From Treponema sp. (GTDB lineage Bacteria; Spirochaetota; Spirochaetia; Treponematales; Breznakiellaceae): a DNA stretch of 11,207 bases. This document shows, one piece after another, positions 2,238-10,953 of the stretch (its first letter is position 1; every line of letters begins with the position of its first letter). Location of the stretch: positions 1 to 11,207 of the forward strand of contig JAIRRF010000028.1 in NCBI GenBank assembly GCA_031256115.1, written 5' to 3'. A program made the translations under genes and the position numbers. The notes beneath the pieces are model-generated. The model did no database searches and was not told the DNA's origin. It was given only the letters and a program-made list of their open reading frames with translations.

Positions 2238-3122
2238 ATGGAAACCATTACCAGTGCGTTTAAAGACATCATCAAAGAAGCGGTTATGCGGTCAAAAGCC
2301 GTAACCAAGATAACCGAAGATAATGTATACCAGCAGGGAAACGCCGAAATCCGTCCCTTGTTGGATAAAATAGTTGAAACCCTGGTTCTTCCCGGTTCGG
2401 GGATTAGCGGTATGGAAAATATCCGGGAACTGTACCGCCTTTTGAAAGAAGGTCGATCCTGCCTGCTCCTCCTGGAACATTACAGCAACCTGGACTATTC
2501 TCTTTTTGATTGTTTTCTTCGCAAGGAGGAAGGAGGAGAACCAATAGCGGAGTCTCTGGTTGCAATTGCGGGGAAGAAACTAACCGAAGACAATCCCGTG
2601 GTATCCGCCTTTACCAGCGCCTATACCCGGATTGTGATATATCCCAGCCGGTCTTTACAGGGGCTGGACCCGGAGAAAGACAAGGAAGAGATACAACGCA
2701 GTGCGATGATTAACAATGCTGCCACCAGAACCTTGATCCGGGTTAAGGAAAATGGCGGATTGGTGCTGGTTTTTCCGTCCGGCACCCGTTACCGTCCGGG
2801 AGATCCATCAACCAAACGGGGTGTCAGAGAAATTGATTCTTACATCCGGCTCTTTGATTATATGTGTCCTGTGGCGGTTAACGGCGAATGTCTTCATGTT
2901 CAGCATGGGGATATGATGGGAGATTCGGTAAGCCAGGATTTGGTCCGTCTTACGGCAGCACCAATAATGAGTTGTTCAACATTCAGAGACGAAGTCCGTG
3001 CCAAGGCAGAAGAGGCAGGAATAGAGGATAAAAAGCAAGCTGTGGCGGATGCCGTCATGGAATTACTTGAAAACCTTCACAATGCCGCCGAACCGGAACG
3101 GCAAAAACTAATGAACAAATGA
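2238..3122 (+). CDS. PlsC/GPAT-type HX4D acyltransferase
   Basis: A 294-residue protein with the acyltransferase motifs of the PlsC superfamily. Motif I is H81-YSNL-D86 (HX4D, the catalytic pair). A TRIVIYPS segment at about 130-137 takes the place of motif II. A motif-III-like FPSGTRYRPG spans 179-188, in which Ser replaces the Glu of the usual FPEGTR. The family moves an acyl chain onto G3P or lysophosphatidate in phospholipid synthesis. The FPSG form is reminiscent of plastid-type G3P acyltransferases, so G3P is as plausible an acceptor as lysophosphatidate. I see no obvious transmembrane helix; the protein looks soluble or peripheral. It starts 12 nt after pepT and lacks a clear Shine-Dalgarno, which suggests translational coupling. 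It is last in the + strand run and converges on dhaM. Superfamily is sure, substrate is not. Confidence 0.8.
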   Translation: METITSAFKDIIKEAVMRSKAVTKITEDNVYQQGNAEIRPLLDKIVETLVLPGSGISGMENIRELYRLLKEGRSCLLLLEHYSNLDYSLFDCFLRKEEGGEPIAESLVAIAGKKLTEDNPVVSAFTSAYTRIVIYPSRSLQGLDPEKDKEEIQRSAMINNAATRTLIRVKENGGLVLVFPSGTRYRPGDPSTKRGVREIDSYIRLFDYMCPVAVNGECLHVQHGDMMGDSVSQDLVRLTAAPIMSCSTFRDEVRAKAEEAGIEDKKQAVADAVMELLENLHNAAEPERQKLMNK

Positions 3123-3201: not shown

Positions 3202-3591
3202 TCAGTCACTTTTTGGCAAAAGAAATTCCTGCAATTGATCCAGAGTTTCCTGGGCGCTTTGACCGGCGGCTATAGCTATGGCTGCAATCAAAGCCCCTTC
3301 CACAAGGGCCGCATCGCACAGGTAAACCCGTTCCAGTAATTCACTATCCAGAGCTTCCCTGGCCATCTGCCCGGTTAACCGGGCAGAGCCAAGGTCCGCC
3401 AGAACTATCACTTCGCCCTGTTTGGCAGCATCTTCCATTACGGCAAAAGTTTTGTCATAATCAGCGCCAAGGGTACCTGCTTTAGTGCCCCCCACGGTTA
3501 TGATATTTGCTTCGCCGCCCATCTCAAGGGCAAGATCTTTAGCCCCTTCGACAATCTTTGGACTATGTGAAATTAGCAGTAATGAAACCAC
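3202..3591 (-). CDS. dhaM: PTS-dependent dihydroxyacetone kinase, phosphotransferase subunit DhaM (single EIIA domain)
   Basis: A 129-residue EIIA-mannose-like protein that hands PTS phosphate to the ADP held by DhaL. The phosphorylated histidine is H9 in LLLISHSP, the same position as in E. coli DhaM. The GGTKAGTLGADYDK stretch and the ADLGSARL stretch are family hallmarks. Unlike E. coli DhaM (about 470 residues, with added HPr and EI-like domains), this one is only the EIIA domain, as in Gram-positive organisms. It must therefore draw phosphate from general HPr/EI encoded elsewhere. The start is GTG (3589-3591), supported by GGAG five nt upstream. It begins 13 nt after dhaL and is the last gene before the terminator at 3122-3150. 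Identification is firm. Confidence 0.93.
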   Translation of the reverse strand: MVSLLLISHSPKIVEGAKDLALEMGGEANIITVGGTKAGTLGADYDKTFAVMEDAAKQGEVIVLADLGSARLTGQMAREALDSELLERVYLCDAALVEGALIAAIAIAAGQSAQETLDQLQEFLLPKSD

Positions 3592-3604: not shown

Positions 3605-4234
3605 CTATGCCAGGGCTTTGTTGATTATGGAGATCATCAGATAACTTGATGTGGCGCCCGGGTCAATATGGCCGATGCTGCGTTCTCCAAGATAAGAAGC
3701 TCGTCCCTTTTTTGCAAGGATGTCTTTGGTCTTTTCCATACAGGATGCGGCAATTTTTTCCGCATTGGCGAAAGCCTCCTTGCCGGAAAGTCCCGCGGCA
3801 CTGTCCTTTTCCAAAGACTCCAGGGCCGGAAGAAGTACGTCAATCATGGTTTTATCGCCCAGTTCGGCTTTACCCCGGGCCTGAACGCCCAGAATTCCTT
3901 CTTTAAAGATGGGTACAAAACCTGCCAGGTCGATTTCTGTAAGACCCTTTGCCAAACCAGCGGCTTTCAGGAATAGGCTGCCGTACAACGGGCCCGAGGC
4001 ACCGCCCACATTGGAGATAAGAGCCATGGCGGTTGTTTTTAAAACATCGCCAATATCGGCGCCGGGAGCTTCTTTTAGTTTTTGCATCACCACTTCAAAG
4101 CCCCGGGCCATATTAAACCCATGATCGCCGTCCCCTATGGCCTGATCGAGATCGCTTAAATACTGTTTCTTTTCTTCGATCATCCCGGCTATATCGCCAA
4201 TAATGGAACGAACCTTATCAATATTTATGCTCAT
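3605..4234 (-). CDS. dhaL: Dihydroxyacetone kinase ADP-binding subunit DhaL
   Basis: A 209-residue DhaL, the normal size (about 210). It holds ADP as a tightly bound cofactor, rephosphorylated by DhaM, and passes the gamma-phosphate to DHA on DhaK. The Mg-nucleotide motif is complete: D30-x4-D35-x-D37-H38 in DQAIGDGDHGFNM. The C-terminal GRASYLGERSIGHIDPGA block is also typical. Its ATG overlaps the dhaK stop by one base (TAATG), a sign of translational coupling and matched subunit levels. Lacking a second fused domain, it belongs to the PTS-type, not the ATP-type, DHA kinase system. Very confident. Confidence 0.95.
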   Translation of the reverse strand: MSINIDKVRSIIGDIAGMIEEKKQYLSDLDQAIGDGDHGFNMARGFEVVMQKLKEAPGADIGDVLKTTAMALISNVGGASGPLYGSLFLKAAGLAKGLTEIDLAGFVPIFKEGILGVQARGKAELGDKTMIDVLLPALESLEKDSAAGLSGKEAFANAEKIAASCMEKTKDILAKKGRASYLGERSIGHIDPGATSSYLMISIINKALA

Positions 4235-5247
4235 TAGCCGAAGGTCCTCCAGGCAATAGTGTTTGCCTTAGCGTCATAAAACTTTTTCAGTTCCGCATCA
4301 AGTTTAAGCACCGAAACGGAGAAGCCTGCCATTTCTATGGCTGTCATGTAGTTGCCTACGTCGGTTGAATAGATTTTTATGCCCTTTTTGGTAAGAATAT
4401 CGTTTACCTTATGGCTGACGATGAACTGCTCCATTAAGGGAGTGGCGCCCAGCCCGTTAACAAGGACGACTACTTCCTCTCCCGAATTGATGGGATTATC
4501 CTTTAATATATAATCCACCAGGATATGTTCAACCAGTTCGTTTGCTGATTTGATCTTGCCCTTGGTGACACCGGGCTCGCCGTGTATACCAAGACCGATT
4601 TCAATCTCGTCTGCGCCGAGCTCAAAACCGGGTTTTCCCGCTGCGGGAACGGTGCAGGGAGTAAGTGCTATGCCCATGGATCGTACATTGGCAATAACCT
4701 TTTCGCCGACTTTCTGTACACCGTCAAGATCAAGGCCCGCTTCTGCTGCGGCCCCGGCAATTTTGTGAATCAGAACTGTTCCGGCAATGCCCCGACGGCC
4801 AACAGTCCAGGTACTGTTCATAACTGCCACGTCATCATTGACAATGACTTTTGCAACTTTTATGCCTTCCGCTTCCGCCATTTCCCCGGCCATTTCGAAG
4901 TTCATTACGTCGCCGGTATAGTTTTTAATTACCATCAAAACGCCTTTATCTGTTTTTACCGCTTTAATGGCTTCGAACACCGGTTCCGGACTGGGAGATG
5001 TGAATACCGCACCGCAGACAGCAGCGTCAAGCATACCTTCACCTACAAAACCCGCATGGGAAGGCTCATGGCCCGAGCCTCCGCCTGAAATCAAGGCAAC
5101 TTTTCCTGTTTTTGGCTTACTGCGGACAACAACAGCCTGACCGGCTTCGGCAATAGAAATTCGCTTTACATAATCGGGATAAGCCAGGGTTAAACCGGCT
5201 ACCATTTCGTCAACAATATTATTAGGATCGTTGATTACCTTTTTCAT
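4234..5247 (-). CDS. dhaK: Dihydroxyacetone kinase DHA-binding subunit DhaK
   Basis: A 337-residue DhaK that binds dihydroxyacetone covalently as a hemiaminal and has it phosphorylated to DHAP by DhaL-ATP. Key residues are seen at the expected places: H222 in GLGIHGEPG (covalent substrate His, H218 in E. coli), H60 in GGGSGHEPSHAG and D113 in NYTGDVMNF (E. coli H56/D109). Length and full-length similarity are normal. AAGGAG lies 8 nt before the ATG. It follows glpF after a 210-nt gap that holds two large palindromes and a candidate promoter, so dhaKLM may be transcribed apart from, or in addition to, the glp genes. DHA must come from outside or from an enzyme not encoded here, because no glycerol dehydrogenase is present. 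Confidence 0.96.
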   Translation of the reverse strand: MKKVINDPNNIVDEMVAGLTLAYPDYVKRISIAEAGQAVVVRSKPKTGKVALISGGGSGHEPSHAGFVGEGMLDAAVCGAVFTSPSPEPVFEAIKAVKTDKGVLMVIKNYTGDVMNFEMAGEMAEAEGIKVAKVIVNDDVAVMNSTWTVGRRGIAGTVLIHKIAGAAAEAGLDLDGVQKVGEKVIANVRSMGIALTPCTVPAAGKPGFELGADEIEIGLGIHGEPGVTKGKIKSANELVEHILVDYILKDNPINSGEEVVVLVNGLGATPLMEQFIVSHKVNDILTKKGIKIYSTDVGNYMTAIEMAGFSVSVLKLDAELKKFYDAKANTIAWRTFG

Positions 5248-5457: not shown

Positions 5458-6177
5458 TTAACCAAAAACTGCTACGCTTGCCAATGCTCCAAGGATAGCG
5501 CCGATTATCGGACCGCACACAGGAATCCATGCATAGTCCCAGCCTGAACCGCCTTTGCCTTTCATGGGGAGAATCGCATGCATAATGCGCGGACCCAAGT
5601 CACGGGCAGGGTTAATCGCATAGCCGGTGGTTCCACCAAGGGAGATACCGATGGTAAGGATGACCGCCCATACACGCCAGAGGCCAAGAGCTGCGAGTCC
5701 GCCGTCACCAGCCTGCGCTACGCCGGCCGTTAAGGTAAAGAGCAGCACAAAGGTTCCGATAATTTCACAGATAAGGTTCCGTCCGTTATTCCGGATTGCC
5801 GGGCCTGTGCTGAATACCGCAAGCTGGGCGCCGGGATCTTCAGTAGCATCGAAGTGATCCTTATGCATAACCCAGACAAGGAATGCGCCGGTCATGGCGC
5901 CCAGGAATTGAGCGACAATATATCCGGGAACTATTCCCCAATCAGCTATCCCCGCAGCGGCCAGAGCGATGGTAAGCGCCGGGTTAAAGTGAGCGCCGCT
6001 CATACCGGCAAACATAAGCGCCGGCACCAACACGGCTGTTGCCCATCCAACAGTAATAACAATCCACCCTGAACTGTTTCCCTTTGTGCCCTTCAAGACC
6101 ACGTTGGCTACGACACCGTCTCCCAACAGAATCAGAAAAGCAGTTCCCAGATACTCACCAAGGTATGCCATATCCAT
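5458..6177 (-). CDS. glpF: Glycerol facilitator (aquaglyceroporin) GlpF
   Basis: A 239-residue MIP-family channel, a little shorter than E. coli GlpF (281). Both half-helix pore motifs are present: NPA at 65-67 (GAHFNPALTIALA) and NPA at 189-191. The Asp directly after NPAR (NPARD, D193) and the following LGPRI are typical of the glycerol-conducting branch, not water-only aquaporins. Hydrophobic segments are spaced for six membrane helices. It lets glycerol diffuse across the inner membrane, where GlpK traps it. GGAG six nt upstream supports the ATG at 6177; a second ATG two codons later is possible. It lies downstream of the G3P-oxidising genes and upstream of dhaKLM, and is followed by the 19-bp palindrome. 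Confidence 0.95.
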   Translation of the reverse strand: MDMAYLGEYLGTAFLILLGDGVVANVVLKGTKGNSSGWIVITVGWATAVLVPALMFAGMSGAHFNPALTIALAAAGIADWGIVPGYIVAQFLGAMTGAFLVWVMHKDHFDATEDPGAQLAVFSTGPAIRNNGRNLICEIIGTFVLLFTLTAGVAQAGDGGLAALGLWRVWAVILTIGISLGGTTGYAINPARDLGPRIMHAILPMKGKGGSGWDYAWIPVCGPIIGAILGALASVAVFG

Positions 6178-6244: not shown

Positions 6245-7915
6245 TTATAAGCTCCGGGTCGATACAAAATTAGCCCCGGAACCGCAGATATTTTTTACAA
6301 TAATTTCGCCGTTTTTAACAGGGCCTTCTATCTCCAGCCCATCAAGCAATTTCATGGCGTCAAAGATTATCTCTTTGGAGATTGACGCATCCGTTTTAAC
6401 GGGCATCCTGGTCAATTCCGTCCCGGAAATACACACCGTAGAGGTAATAACCCGCATCGGATTGGCAATCTCCATTTTTCCGTAGTTTTCACCCCGATCA
6501 CAGGTATGCCCCGTTACCGCATAGTCCCTGGCGGGATCCACCTTTAAACGGCAGCCTTTTGGGCATACAATGCAGACCAGTTCTATCCGTCCTTCCTCAT
6601 CTTTTGTTTTAAAGGTAACACTTGATCCGGGTTGTCTGGTAGTGCTGTTTACACATACGGTAATGTCCCGGCCTTTTGCCTTTTCAATCACGTCTTTTAA
6701 CAAAACGATTTTTTCCATTTCCCCCGGTGCAAGATGTTCCCGTTTGAACGAAGCAAGTACTTCATTGCCGCATAATACATCGATTTTCGATTCCTTGTAA
6801 ATCGCCGTACTGCGGAAAAAAACTTCGACGGTTTTTTCAATATTTTCGGCCCGTATTTTTTGGGGTACCACATAACCGATACCTTCTCCCCAGCGCAAAT
6901 TTACAGGTTCCGGGTTTTTTACTGCTCCCACGGCATAAAGAGCCGCAAATTTTCCCGCCTTCATGGCTTCTGCACTAACAAAATCAACCAGATCATGTAC
7001 ATGGGCGACATTGCCGCAGGCAAAAATACCGGGTACCGAAGTTTCCATATTTTCAAAAAATACCGGGCCGCTGGTCTTTGGATCCATGTCAATTCCGGCA
7101 TTCCGGGAAAGCTCGTTTTCCGGAATAAGCCCCACAGAAAGCAGAACCGTATCACAGTCAATAGTCATTTCCGTTCCCGGAACAGGTTTTAAGTTTTCGT
7201 CCACCTTGTTAATTATAACCTGTTCCACCCTTTTGTCGCCACGAATCTCTGTTATTGTGTGTGAAAGATGTAGCGGAATATCGTAATCTTCCAGGCACTG
7301 AACGATATTCCGGGTAAGCCCGCTTGAATAGGGCAAAACTTCGAAAACCCCAAGGACTTTTGCTCCCTCCAGGGTCAGGCGCCGGGCCATGATAAGGCCG
7401 ATGTCTCCGGAGCCAAGGATGACAATCCGTTTGCCGACTGTCCGGCCTTCGATATTCATGTAGAGCTGGGCGGCTCCGGCAGAAAAGACCCCGGAAGGCC
7501 GGGTTCCGGGAATACCAATGGCACCCCGGGTTCGCTCCCGGCAGCCCATGGCAAGGATTACTGCCTTTCCGGAAACCTCTACGTAACCTGCCCCTTTGTG
7601 GATAAAACGGACAATCCTGTCTTTTGAAACATCAAGAACCATCGCGCCGGTAAGCGCAGTAATGTCCGTAGCTTTTAATTGTTCGATATAACGTTCGGCA
7701 TATTCCGGGCCGCTTAATTCCTCTTTAAAAACATGGAGGCCGAACCCGTTATGTATACACTGGTTAAGGATTCCCCCCAAACTAAGGTTCCGGTCAAGAA
7801 GCAGAACATCTTTTGCACCGTTTTCTCTTGCCGAAAGCGCCGCCGCAAGCCCCGCCGGACCGCCTCCGGCCACTATTACATCGTAGCTGTCTTTTATTTT
7901 TAAATCCGATTTCAT
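6245..7915 (-). CDS. FAD/NAD-dependent oxidoreductase fused to a DUF1667 domain
   Basis: A 556-residue two-part protein. Residues 1 to about 420 form a pyridine-nucleotide-disulfide-type oxidoreductase: an FAD GxGxxG motif in VIVAGGGPAGLAA near the N-terminus, a second nucleotide site in IVILGSGDIGLIMA, the NQCIHNGFG cysteine motif, and GIFACGNVAHVHDLVDF near the FAD tail. From about residue 446 it has a DUF1667 module with four cysteines (C448, C451, C455 in CIVCPKGC, and C472 in HTCDRG). That pattern suggests a metal or Fe-S site. From family knowledge, this oxidoreductase and DUF1667 are usually separate neighbouring genes beside a GlpA-like dehydrogenase in glycerol clusters; here they are one polypeptide. 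Its ATG overlaps the stop of the GlpA-like gene (ATGA), implying a complex. It probably passes electrons from G3P oxidation to an unidentified acceptor. Its true reaction is unproven. Confidence 0.88.
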   Translation of the reverse strand: MKSDLKIKDSYDVIVAGGGPAGLAAALSARENGAKDVLLLDRNLSLGGILNQCIHNGFGLHVFKEELSGPEYAERYIEQLKATDITALTGAMVLDVSKDRIVRFIHKGAGYVEVSGKAVILAMGCRERTRGAIGIPGTRPSGVFSAGAAQLYMNIEGRTVGKRIVILGSGDIGLIMARRLTLEGAKVLGVFEVLPYSSGLTRNIVQCLEDYDIPLHLSHTITEIRGDKRVEQVIINKVDENLKPVPGTEMTIDCDTVLLSVGLIPENELSRNAGIDMDPKTSGPVFFENMETSVPGIFACGNVAHVHDLVDFVSAEAMKAGKFAALYAVGAVKNPEPVNLRWGEGIGYVVPQKIRAENIEKTVEVFFRSTAIYKESKIDVLCGNEVLASFKREHLAPGEMEKIVLLKDVIEKAKGRDITVCVNSTTRQPGSSVTFKTKDEEGRIELVCIVCPKGCRLKVDPARDYAVTGHTCDRGENYGKMEIANPMRVITSTVCISGTELTRMPVKTDASISKEIIFDAMKLLDGLEIEGPVKNGEIIVKNICGSGANFVSTRSL

Positions 7916-9349
7916 GGGCTGCCCCGCTTTGTTTCGCCGGTCACTATATACGTGCCTTTTCTGTCCTGGGGGACCTCTTCCGGCTGAATATTAAAGTGTT
8001 TGGCGATAAGAGCCAGCACTTTTGGGCTGCAAAACCCGCCCTGGCAGCGGCCCATCCCGGGCATACAGCGGCGCTTCAGGGCATCAATTGAACGGGGGGG
8101 CAGGGGCCGGTTCAGGGCGTCAATGATTTCGCCTTCCGTAATAGTCCGGCAACGGCATACTATGGTGCCATATAGAGGATTTTCCTTTATAACTCTGGTT
8201 TTTTCTGATTCGCTTAAATCTTTAAACTTGATAACACAGCGTTTTTCCGTAAAATTCGGATTTGGTGTATTGCTTAAGCCATTTGCCAATAATAGTTTTG
8301 CAATATCCTTTGCTATGGCCGGAGCGGATGTTAAACCCGGTGATTTAATGGCGGCCATGTTAAAAAAGCCGGGGCTTTCCCTGGATTCGCCTATAATAAA
8401 GTCTTCCAGGCCCGCATCGGCCCGGAGTCCTGAAAAATTCCGTATGGAGCTTCTAAAATTTATTGACGGTATGCAACGGAGTGCATTATTACGTACATAT
8501 TCCAGTCCCGCGGCAGTTGTTGAATAATCTTCTTTTCCTGAATCTTTGCTGTCCGGCCCAATAATGATATTTCCATGCGCCGTCGGAGAAACAAGAACAC
8601 CCTTTCCCAGTTTTGAAGGACAGGGGAAAACAACGGTATTTACCAGGCCTATTTCGGTGGTGTCCAGGATAAAGTATTCGCCGCTTTTGGCGTTTATGGT
8701 AAAATGTTCAGGTTCCACCATCCGGCTTATCTTGTCGGAATAAACACCGGCGGCATTTACCACATAGCGGGCTTTATAATCACCCTGAGTGGTTGTTACC
8801 AAAAAGCCTTCATCTATTTTTTTTATCGCAGTTACTTCGCAGTCAAGTTCGACTTTTGCCCCCCCCCTGTACAGCACATTCAGCCTGAGCCAGGGCAAGT
8901 TCCCAGGGGGCAATCACCCCGGCGGAAGGAGCATAAAGGGCGCAAACTACTTCGCGGCTCAAATTTGGTTCAAGGCGGAAAAGTTCTTCGCCGGAAATAA
9001 TTTTCTGGTCCGGAACTCCGTTTTTTACGCCCTTTTCATACAATTTTTCGATTGTTTTACGGTCGGTTTCGTCAAAGCCGACAACCAGGGAACCTGTCTT
9101 TTTATAGGTAATATCCAAATCGGTGCAAAGCTTTTCGATAAGGATGTTGCCCTCTACATTAAGCCGGGCCATTACTGTTCCGGGCTCAGGATCGTAACCG
9201 GCATGGACAATTCCGCTGTTTGCCTTGGATGTACCGCAGGCAACGTCATTTTCCTTTTCAAGAAGGAGAGCAGAAATTTTATAACGGCTCAGCTCATAGA
9301 GCAGCGAACAACCGCAGACACCGCCGCCGATAATGATCAGATCATTCAT
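7912..9349 (-). pseudogene. GlpA-like FAD dehydrogenase with BFD-type [2Fe-2S] domain, frameshifted
   Basis: One gene split in two frames. The N-terminal piece (9349-8843, 168 residues) has the FAD motif IIIGGGVCG and AGYDPEPGTVMARLN, typical of the LhgO/GlpA-type D-amino-acid-oxidase fold (COG0579). It ends soon after a run of nine G. The C-terminal piece continues in another frame from about 8865 to 7912, with the FAD-domain end (FSGLRADAGLEDFIIGESRE) and a BFD-like cluster domain: CRC, then RRCMPGMGRCQGGFC. Removing one G gives a continuous 478-residue protein (QGGAKVELDCEVTAIK across the junction). The roughly 310 downstream codons carry no other damage. The likely job is oxidation of G3P to DHAP at the membrane or in a complex with the next gene, which it overlaps (ATGA). 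The TTG at 8913 is not a credible native start. There is no clear Shine-Dalgarno at 9349. It is either phase-variable, recently broken, or intact with a sequence error. Confidence 0.85.
8859..8867 (-). repeat. Nine-G homopolymer at the frameshift in the GlpA-like gene
   Basis: The plus strand has nine consecutive C (8859-8867), which is G9 in the coding strand between a CA and CAAAAG. The upstream frame reads Q-G-G-G-K-S-R-T-stop. With eight G it reads Q-G-G-A-K-V-E-L and joins the downstream frame. Runs of this length are prone to slip during replication and to be miscounted by sequencers. Confidence 0.95.

Positions 9350-9438: not shown

Positions 9439-10953
<1,515 letters not shown>

Follow-up and report, generated by a model that had tools for sequence, protein, structure and literature searches.

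The closest described counterpart to the locus reported here is glpK of M. tuberculosis, where glycerol defects of clinical isolates are traced to the gain of one base in a seven-G run. The excerpts of that paper available to us speak of reversible high-frequency variation (PMC6667613), and a review, in the portion we could consult, names GlpK among phase-variable proteins (PMC11868660). As far as the available sections of the other papers go, the tprL promoter of T. pallidum has a run of between 7 and 11 G (PMC7864442), pilus genes of B. breve are divided into two frames by intragenic tracts of 10 and 11 G (PMC9187656), and an extra protein band of BCG Moreau frdB was explained by poly-G transcriptional slippage (PMC7835394).

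Here we analyse a nine-G run in a GlpA-like dehydrogenase gene of a Treponema draft genome, within an 11,207-bp stretch of DNA that we call the window. It shares with M. tuberculosis glpK a position in the coding sequence of a glycerol-catabolism gene, loss of the frame and of much of the protein through one added base, and an otherwise intact gene. The M. tuberculosis run, as described in the parts of the paper available, is seven G long, recurs in many isolates, affects the kinase step and has a measured phenotype (PMC6667613), whereas the window run is nine G long, is seen in one draft genome, affects the next step of the pathway and is absent from the orthologues that we read. T. pallidum tprL offers a poly-G of about nine in another treponeme but, according to the same excerpts, it is a promoter tract that affects transcription, its length variation has been measured, and the gene is for a putative outer-membrane protein (PMC7864442). 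The B. breve pilus clusters resemble our locus in having an intragenic G tract that makes two frames in a gut bacterium; unlike it, their longer tracts are described, in the sections seen, as having genus-wide equivalents and measured variation (PMC9187656), neither of which we found for the window tract. The window tract could in principle work like these known poly-G systems, yet it is neither conserved in the orthologues read nor part of an excess of such tracts in the available genome sequence. A literature search on termite spirochetes and homopolymers returned no poly-G switching, by title, among the matches listed, and one on phase variation in termite Treponema returned nothing on topic by title. 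We take the members of the window's family to be mostly termite-gut treponemes.

Results

A nine-G run divides one dehydrogenase gene

The window is contig 53 of a 1.73-Mb draft genome in 340 contigs (72% complete, 4.4% contaminated). Its minus strand carries an apparent glycerol operon that, from the open reading frame (ORF) list and Pfam matches, consists of glpK, an FAD-dependent dehydrogenase gene, an oxidoreductase-DUF1667 gene (orf556), glpF, dhaK, dhaL and dhaM:

9439..10932, minus strand: glycerol kinase gene glpK, first gene of the apparent operon (ORF list; Pfam FGGY_N, FGGY_C)
8843..9349, minus strand: upstream piece, the N-terminal part of a GlpA/GlpO-type FAD-dependent dehydrogenase, 168 aa with a short out-of-frame tail, ending at TGA 8843-8845 (ORF list; Pfam DAO 1-165 of 353; 76-81% identity to the L002-L004 orthologues)
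8859..8867, minus strand: G9 tract, the frame-change site (direct sequence reading; one base longer than in five aligned relatives)
7912..8913, minus strand: downstream open frame, the rest of DAO plus a BFD-like [2Fe-2S] domain (ORF list; Pfam DAO 161-353 and Fer2_BFD; 68-71% identity to the L002-L004 orthologues)
6245..7915, minus strand: orf556, Pyr_redox_2 fused to DUF1667, 556 aa, next gene after the dehydrogenase (ORF list and Pfam)
5458..6177, minus strand: glycerol facilitator gene glpF, MIP family (ORF list and Pfam)
4234..5247, minus strand: dihydroxyacetone kinase subunit DhaK (ORF list; Pfam Dak1)
3605..4234, minus strand: dihydroxyacetone kinase subunit DhaL (ORF list; Pfam Dak2)
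3202..3591, minus strand: DhaM-type phosphotransferase subunit, EIIA-man (ORF list and Pfam)

The frame that enters the nine G starts at 9349, runs for 168 codons and terminates at a TGA whose first base lies 14 bases beyond the tract. A second frame is open for 333 codons from 8913 to 7912, and the two overlap over 8843-8913. In each of the five loci tested, the two pieces, kept separate, align consecutively on one orthologous protein, covering, for example, residues 7-171 and 152-480 of the L002 protein, and the break cuts a single Pfam DAO domain between them. The DNA alignment has a one-column gap at the tract in all five relatives, that is, one base fewer. The proposal of the first-pass annotation that G9 splits a GlpA-like dehydrogenase is thus borne out by the frames, the cut domain, the consecutive alignment and the one-base gap. 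Its statement that no other stop follows also holds, with the second frame open down to 7912 and the BFD [2Fe-2S] domain retained. The predicted length of the joined protein, 478 residues, fits the open frames of the orthologues (478-521 codons in five loci).

Seven start codons of the second frame are listed within 420 bases, and only TTG 8802 has a ribosome-binding-like motif. We set aside a split two-subunit enzyme on the grounds that the break falls inside one domain and that there is only this one weak restart site. The protein collection lists the upstream 168-aa piece (P0121), but the 120 best matches listed include no identical record of the downstream piece, as though it had been lost at gene calling.

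The operon neighbours of the split gene have open frames and nearly full-length family matches in Pfam, and the ATG of orf556 lies in a four-base overlap with the end of the dehydrogenase gene. Across 18 related loci, several of them cut at their ends, orf556 lies near glpA in 17 and glpK in 14. DUF1667, which is fused to the glpA-adjacent oxidoreductase (6245-7915), is a domain of unknown function. Gene order around glpA varies within the genus. An acyltransferase gene lies beyond dhaM in the window (2238-3122), and its relative stands beside glpA in the same-genus loci L002 and L003.

Identity of the enzyme

The DAO and Fer2_BFD domains, together with glpK and glpF in the same gene run, mark the product as an FAD-dependent oxidoreductase with a BFD domain, encoded in a glycerol operon; these are features of GlpA/GlpO-type FAD-dependent glycerol-3-phosphate dehydrogenases/oxidases. 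The intact orthologue L004 nevertheless differs from both curated families in falling below their NCBIfam cut-offs, with 124.5 against 552.8 bits for anaerobic GlpA (TIGR03377) and 291.2 against 460 bits for type 2 GlpO (NF033460). The best solved-structure match of L004 is L-alpha-glycerophosphate oxidase 4x9m.

The genome has eight PF01266 matches, two of which are the split gene itself. A stand-in enzyme was considered and rejected, as the other six matches cover at most 53 of the 353 profile positions. gpsA (PF07479) was not found in this draft and is present in 4/4 same-genus genomes; its absence is probably a gap in a 72% complete sequence.

Orthologues lack the long tract

A family search gave a match at 1e-80 or better in 108 of 195 genomes, the window's own included. 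Outside the own genome, 24 matches had at least 60% identity, and 23 of these were taken as loci L052-L074, with G166:C97 left out. The orthologues read at the DNA level number 24 (L052-L074 and L083; L074 is partial and L052 is the query). No long G tract is found at the site in these 24: the longest run is six (L053 and L071), and the others are 2-4. The frame is continuous across the site in all of them, and the glycine pair there is mostly written GGC GGC; in more distant proteins, Gly-Gly is mostly replaced by Asn-Gly. Orthologue G003, which had been flagged with a TGA, has a frame open over 478 codons across the site, and the TGA is not inside it.

The tract is therefore not kept in the orthologues of related species, as would be expected of a poly-G phase-variable locus, nor is there a conserved slippery site with a split frame in relatives, as would be expected of programmed slippage or frameshifting; we rejected a programmed frameshift because the tract is not conserved. 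All orthologues are distant, and because the nearest DNA match to the window is only 74% identical, a young switch would escape this test. In searches for a sister allele, the upstream piece matched only its own record at 100% and otherwise 83% at best, and the downstream piece matched nothing above 80% identity among the 120 best of 7775 matches. A plasmid search with the downstream piece returned only matches below 60% identity (44 records).

G runs in the genome

The 27 overlapping eight-G matches in the draft genome resolve into 21 runs of at least eight G, of which five are nine or ten long. Under Markov models of order 2-5, chance would give 20-43 runs of at least eight and 3.8-10.5 of at least nine; under order 1 it would give many more (182 and 58). 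These expectations may be a little too high, since masked bases could still be included when the models are scaled up to the whole genome. The models were built from 35 unmasked contigs (194,060 bases), after 5 of 40 sampled contigs were dropped as masked. The available sequence thus holds no excess of G tracts over chance, a count from which long tracts at contig ends may have been lost. Several long tracts in relatives are found close to the ends of contigs, and some may likewise be missing from this 340-contig draft.

A frame break at a G run is seen in one of the 21 runs, that of glpA. The other 20 runs of at least eight G, among them the four remaining ones of nine or ten, all fall within ORFs that are continuous, as judged from ORF tables and translations, with the ORFs of L040 and L048 cut by a contig end. 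Ten runs fall within a Pfam match that passes its cut-off, and another (L044) within one that does not. The nine/ten-G tracts include one in an ORF with a cytidylyltransferase-like Pfam match (L026), which we read as coaD-like, and two in tRNA-synthetase ORFs identified by Pfam (L045, pheT; L048, valS-like). These continuous ORFs speak for an assembly that usually counts G correctly. On contig 195 (L037), runs of nine and eight G (622-630 and 855-862) lie on opposite strands in one continuous 189-aa ORF that has no Pfam match and that we read as lipoprotein-like.

A scan of the genome for split genes returned glpA and two hits that lie opposite-strand to an intact ORF. mutS and mutL were both found, and we rejected a general mutator as the cause of the frameshift on this basis.

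Two kinds of G tract in related genomes

A ten-G run is present in 36 of 39 genomes searched, the own included; overlapping ten-G matches number in the hundreds in some same-family drafts as against one in the own genome. We read the surroundings of 143 tracts of at least nine G in eleven other genomes. Their choice was non-random: in G006, 55 of about 94 were taken and most near contig ends left out; in G013, G014, G031 and G032, tracts of at least 11 were sought, and in G018 and G022, tracts of at least 10. With ORFs called by length only, 64 of the 75 nine/ten-G tracts are inside an ORF of at least 100 aa, eight are upstream of a gene and three are elsewhere, whereas the 68 tracts of at least 11 G divide into 39 upstream of a gene, 24 in ORFs and five elsewhere. 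G006 taken alone has 39/44 short tracts in ORFs and 3/11 long ones.

The family thus has one class of long tracts upstream of genes, which are reminiscent of contingency loci, and another of short tracts in coding sequence, which look like chance, although the two overlap, as runs of at least 11 G within ORFs also occur (24/68). The glpA tract resembles the short coding class and not the long upstream class. Genes beside long tracts had Pfam matches in seven of ten cases: a glycosyltransferase, a BspA-type repeat protein, a polysaccharide pyruvyl transferase, a PTS permease, an outer-membrane efflux protein, a glycerophosphotransferase and a SpoIIE-type phosphatase. The long tracts in front of relatives' genes look like promoter contingency tracts; some could be read artefacts. 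Long-tract loci include L310-L329 in G014, L224-L237 in G022, L299, L303 and L309 in G013, and L222 (46 G), L276 and L269 in G006. The 2.5-Mb G014 has 147 runs of at least 11 G after a non-G and G013 has 31, whereas three one-contig genomes have two, six and none.

A strict split-gene scan over 112 tracts in seven related genomes gave nine candidate rows. L250 (two rows) and L296 were rejected as neighbouring or continuous genes by their translations, and L256, L279, L297 and L239 as lying within longer continuous ORFs, which leaves L235 and L225 as candidates.

Constraint on the two pieces

When the window gene is compared with five orthologues, differences in both pieces are most frequent at codon position 3 (0.42-0.61, compared with 0.08-0.25 at positions 1 and 2). 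The ratio of amino-acid-changing to silent codons is 0.67-0.89 for the downstream piece and 0.58-0.89 between other orthologues, and no second stop or frame change was found in the 1.4 kb of the gene. The locus thus has a single break with the rest still coding-like, as expected of a pseudogene made by a recent frameshift. Because both pieces keep the position-3 pattern and there is no further stop, the gene does not visibly appear to have undergone long decay; a recent break could not show at such distance.

Averaged per protein, each of the 24 proteins compared is more conserved in its upstream part than in its downstream part. This gap in identity is largest for the window protein (mean 9.7 points; next 9.6 and 9.3; others 3.2-9.6), and over the 253 pairs without the window it has a mean of 6.3 and an sd of 3.8. 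The difference weakly hints at slightly faster change in the downstream piece, although the codon ratios of that piece fall in the range seen among other orthologues.

Discussion

The explanation that we prefer, with a probability of roughly 50%, is a recent +1 slippage null (OFF) allele, fixed or polymorphic, in a gene that had so far been normally constrained. Comparison shows that Gly-Gly is kept here in close orthologues, and that codon changes in this lineage joined the two glycine codons with adjacent ones in a long G run, seen in none of the orthologues read, to which replication slippage would have added one G. Read from the sequence, the frame is lost inside DAO, and the remaining DAO and [2Fe-2S] domain are not made in frame. 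Glycerol uptake and phosphorylation would then persist, and glycerol 3-phosphate would not be oxidised by the split enzyme. Translation of orf556 may also drop with the frame break, because its ATG overlaps the end of the broken gene. The tract would remain mutable and revert at some rate. Codon choice in the lineage seems to have produced the run by chance, and nothing that we found shows selection keeping it as a switch. In favour of such an allele are a tract private among the 24 orthologues, the lack of a genome-wide excess of G tracts, the absence of signs of long decay, the continuous ORFs at the other long runs of the assembly and the mostly coding position of the relatives' nine/ten-G tracts; against it are the 340-contig draft sequence, in which a miscount would look alike, the largest identity gap of the set and the lack of a general mutator. 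With orthologues this distant, a switch that is young yet selected would give the same picture.

The first-pass annotation had offered sequence error, recent mutation and phase variation as explanations. The first two fit best, and the third fails the tests that could be run. An assembly or sequencing miscount, in which the gene is intact in the cells and the contig shows the homopolymer one G too long, is the chief competitor, and we hold it to be possible but on balance unlikely. The draft genome is fragmented, the gene shows no other defect, and there is no second near-identical record to set beside it (P0121 alone for the upstream piece; nothing above 80% among the 120 best listed for the downstream one). 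Illumina reads have been suggested, in the sections seen of the B. breve study, to fail on some intragenic G tracts (PMC9187656). The continuous ORFs at the other 20 runs, two tRNA-synthetase genes among them, argue the other way and do not support systematic miscounting of G by the assembly, although zero failures in the four other nine/ten-G tracts bound the error rate at such tracts only loosely. A long-standing pseudogene on its way to loss might account for the large upstream-downstream identity gap, but it is barely credible for a gene that has no second stop or frame change and a coding pattern of codon positions in its downstream piece, with neighbouring operon genes that are open and match their families at near full length.

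True metabolic phase variation, in which the tract is an intragenic contingency locus that toggles glycerol 3-phosphate oxidation as proposed for M. tuberculosis glpK, is weakly supported, and we consider it improbable. Nine G is long enough to be unstable, judged by the T. pallidum promoter tract, which varies in vivo over 7-11 G and is mostly 9 in the account available (PMC7864442), and two frames meet at the tract, so that its length sets the frame of the gene. The glycerol-defective glpK expansions and the B. breve pilus genes governed by intragenic tracts, both known to us from excerpts (PMC6667613, PMC9187656), add to its plausibility, as do the many long poly-G tracts of several related genomes and the chance that this draft has lost some of its own, given how often relatives' contigs end near them. 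The idea is opposed by the 24 orthologues without a long tract at the site, the absence of a G-tract excess in the available sequence of the genome, the four other nine/ten-G tracts in continuous ORFs and the resemblance of the glpA tract to the short coding class. The earlier view that a metabolic switch of this kind would be unusual needs amending, in that glpK of M. tuberculosis, as far as the paper was available, is a precedent in the same pathway (PMC6667613). A long shot in the same vein is that, in this uncultured gut treponeme, slippage at a newly arisen tract turns glycerol 3-phosphate oxidation off in part of the population, a metabolic bet-hedging locus caught at birth. That the G9 allele is tolerated through RNA polymerase slippage or ribosomal frameshifting that makes some full-length enzyme seems very unlikely. 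BCG Moreau frdB, with its poly-G insertion, its extra band and, in the extract available, transcriptional slippage as the proposed cause (PMC7835394), is a model for it. The 24 orthologues without a long tract point to no conserved programme, and restart is not favoured with a ribosome-binding-like motif at TTG 8802 alone among the seven listed starts, observations that bear on a programme and on restart and are not a test of slippage itself.

If the break is a mutation, as in the slippage null allele that we prefer, or a miscount, then a single frame broken at G9 in draft sequence is a weak ground for proposing phase variation, and simple tests are at hand in recurrence among orthologues, the tract richness of the genome and the distinction between a long upstream and a short coding class. 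If it is a true switch, homopolymer switching would extend to glycerol 3-phosphate oxidation in a symbiont, and this would be a second such locus in glycerol catabolism beside M. tuberculosis glpK. The wider point worth study is the long poly-G tracts in front of genes, of which some relatives have many.
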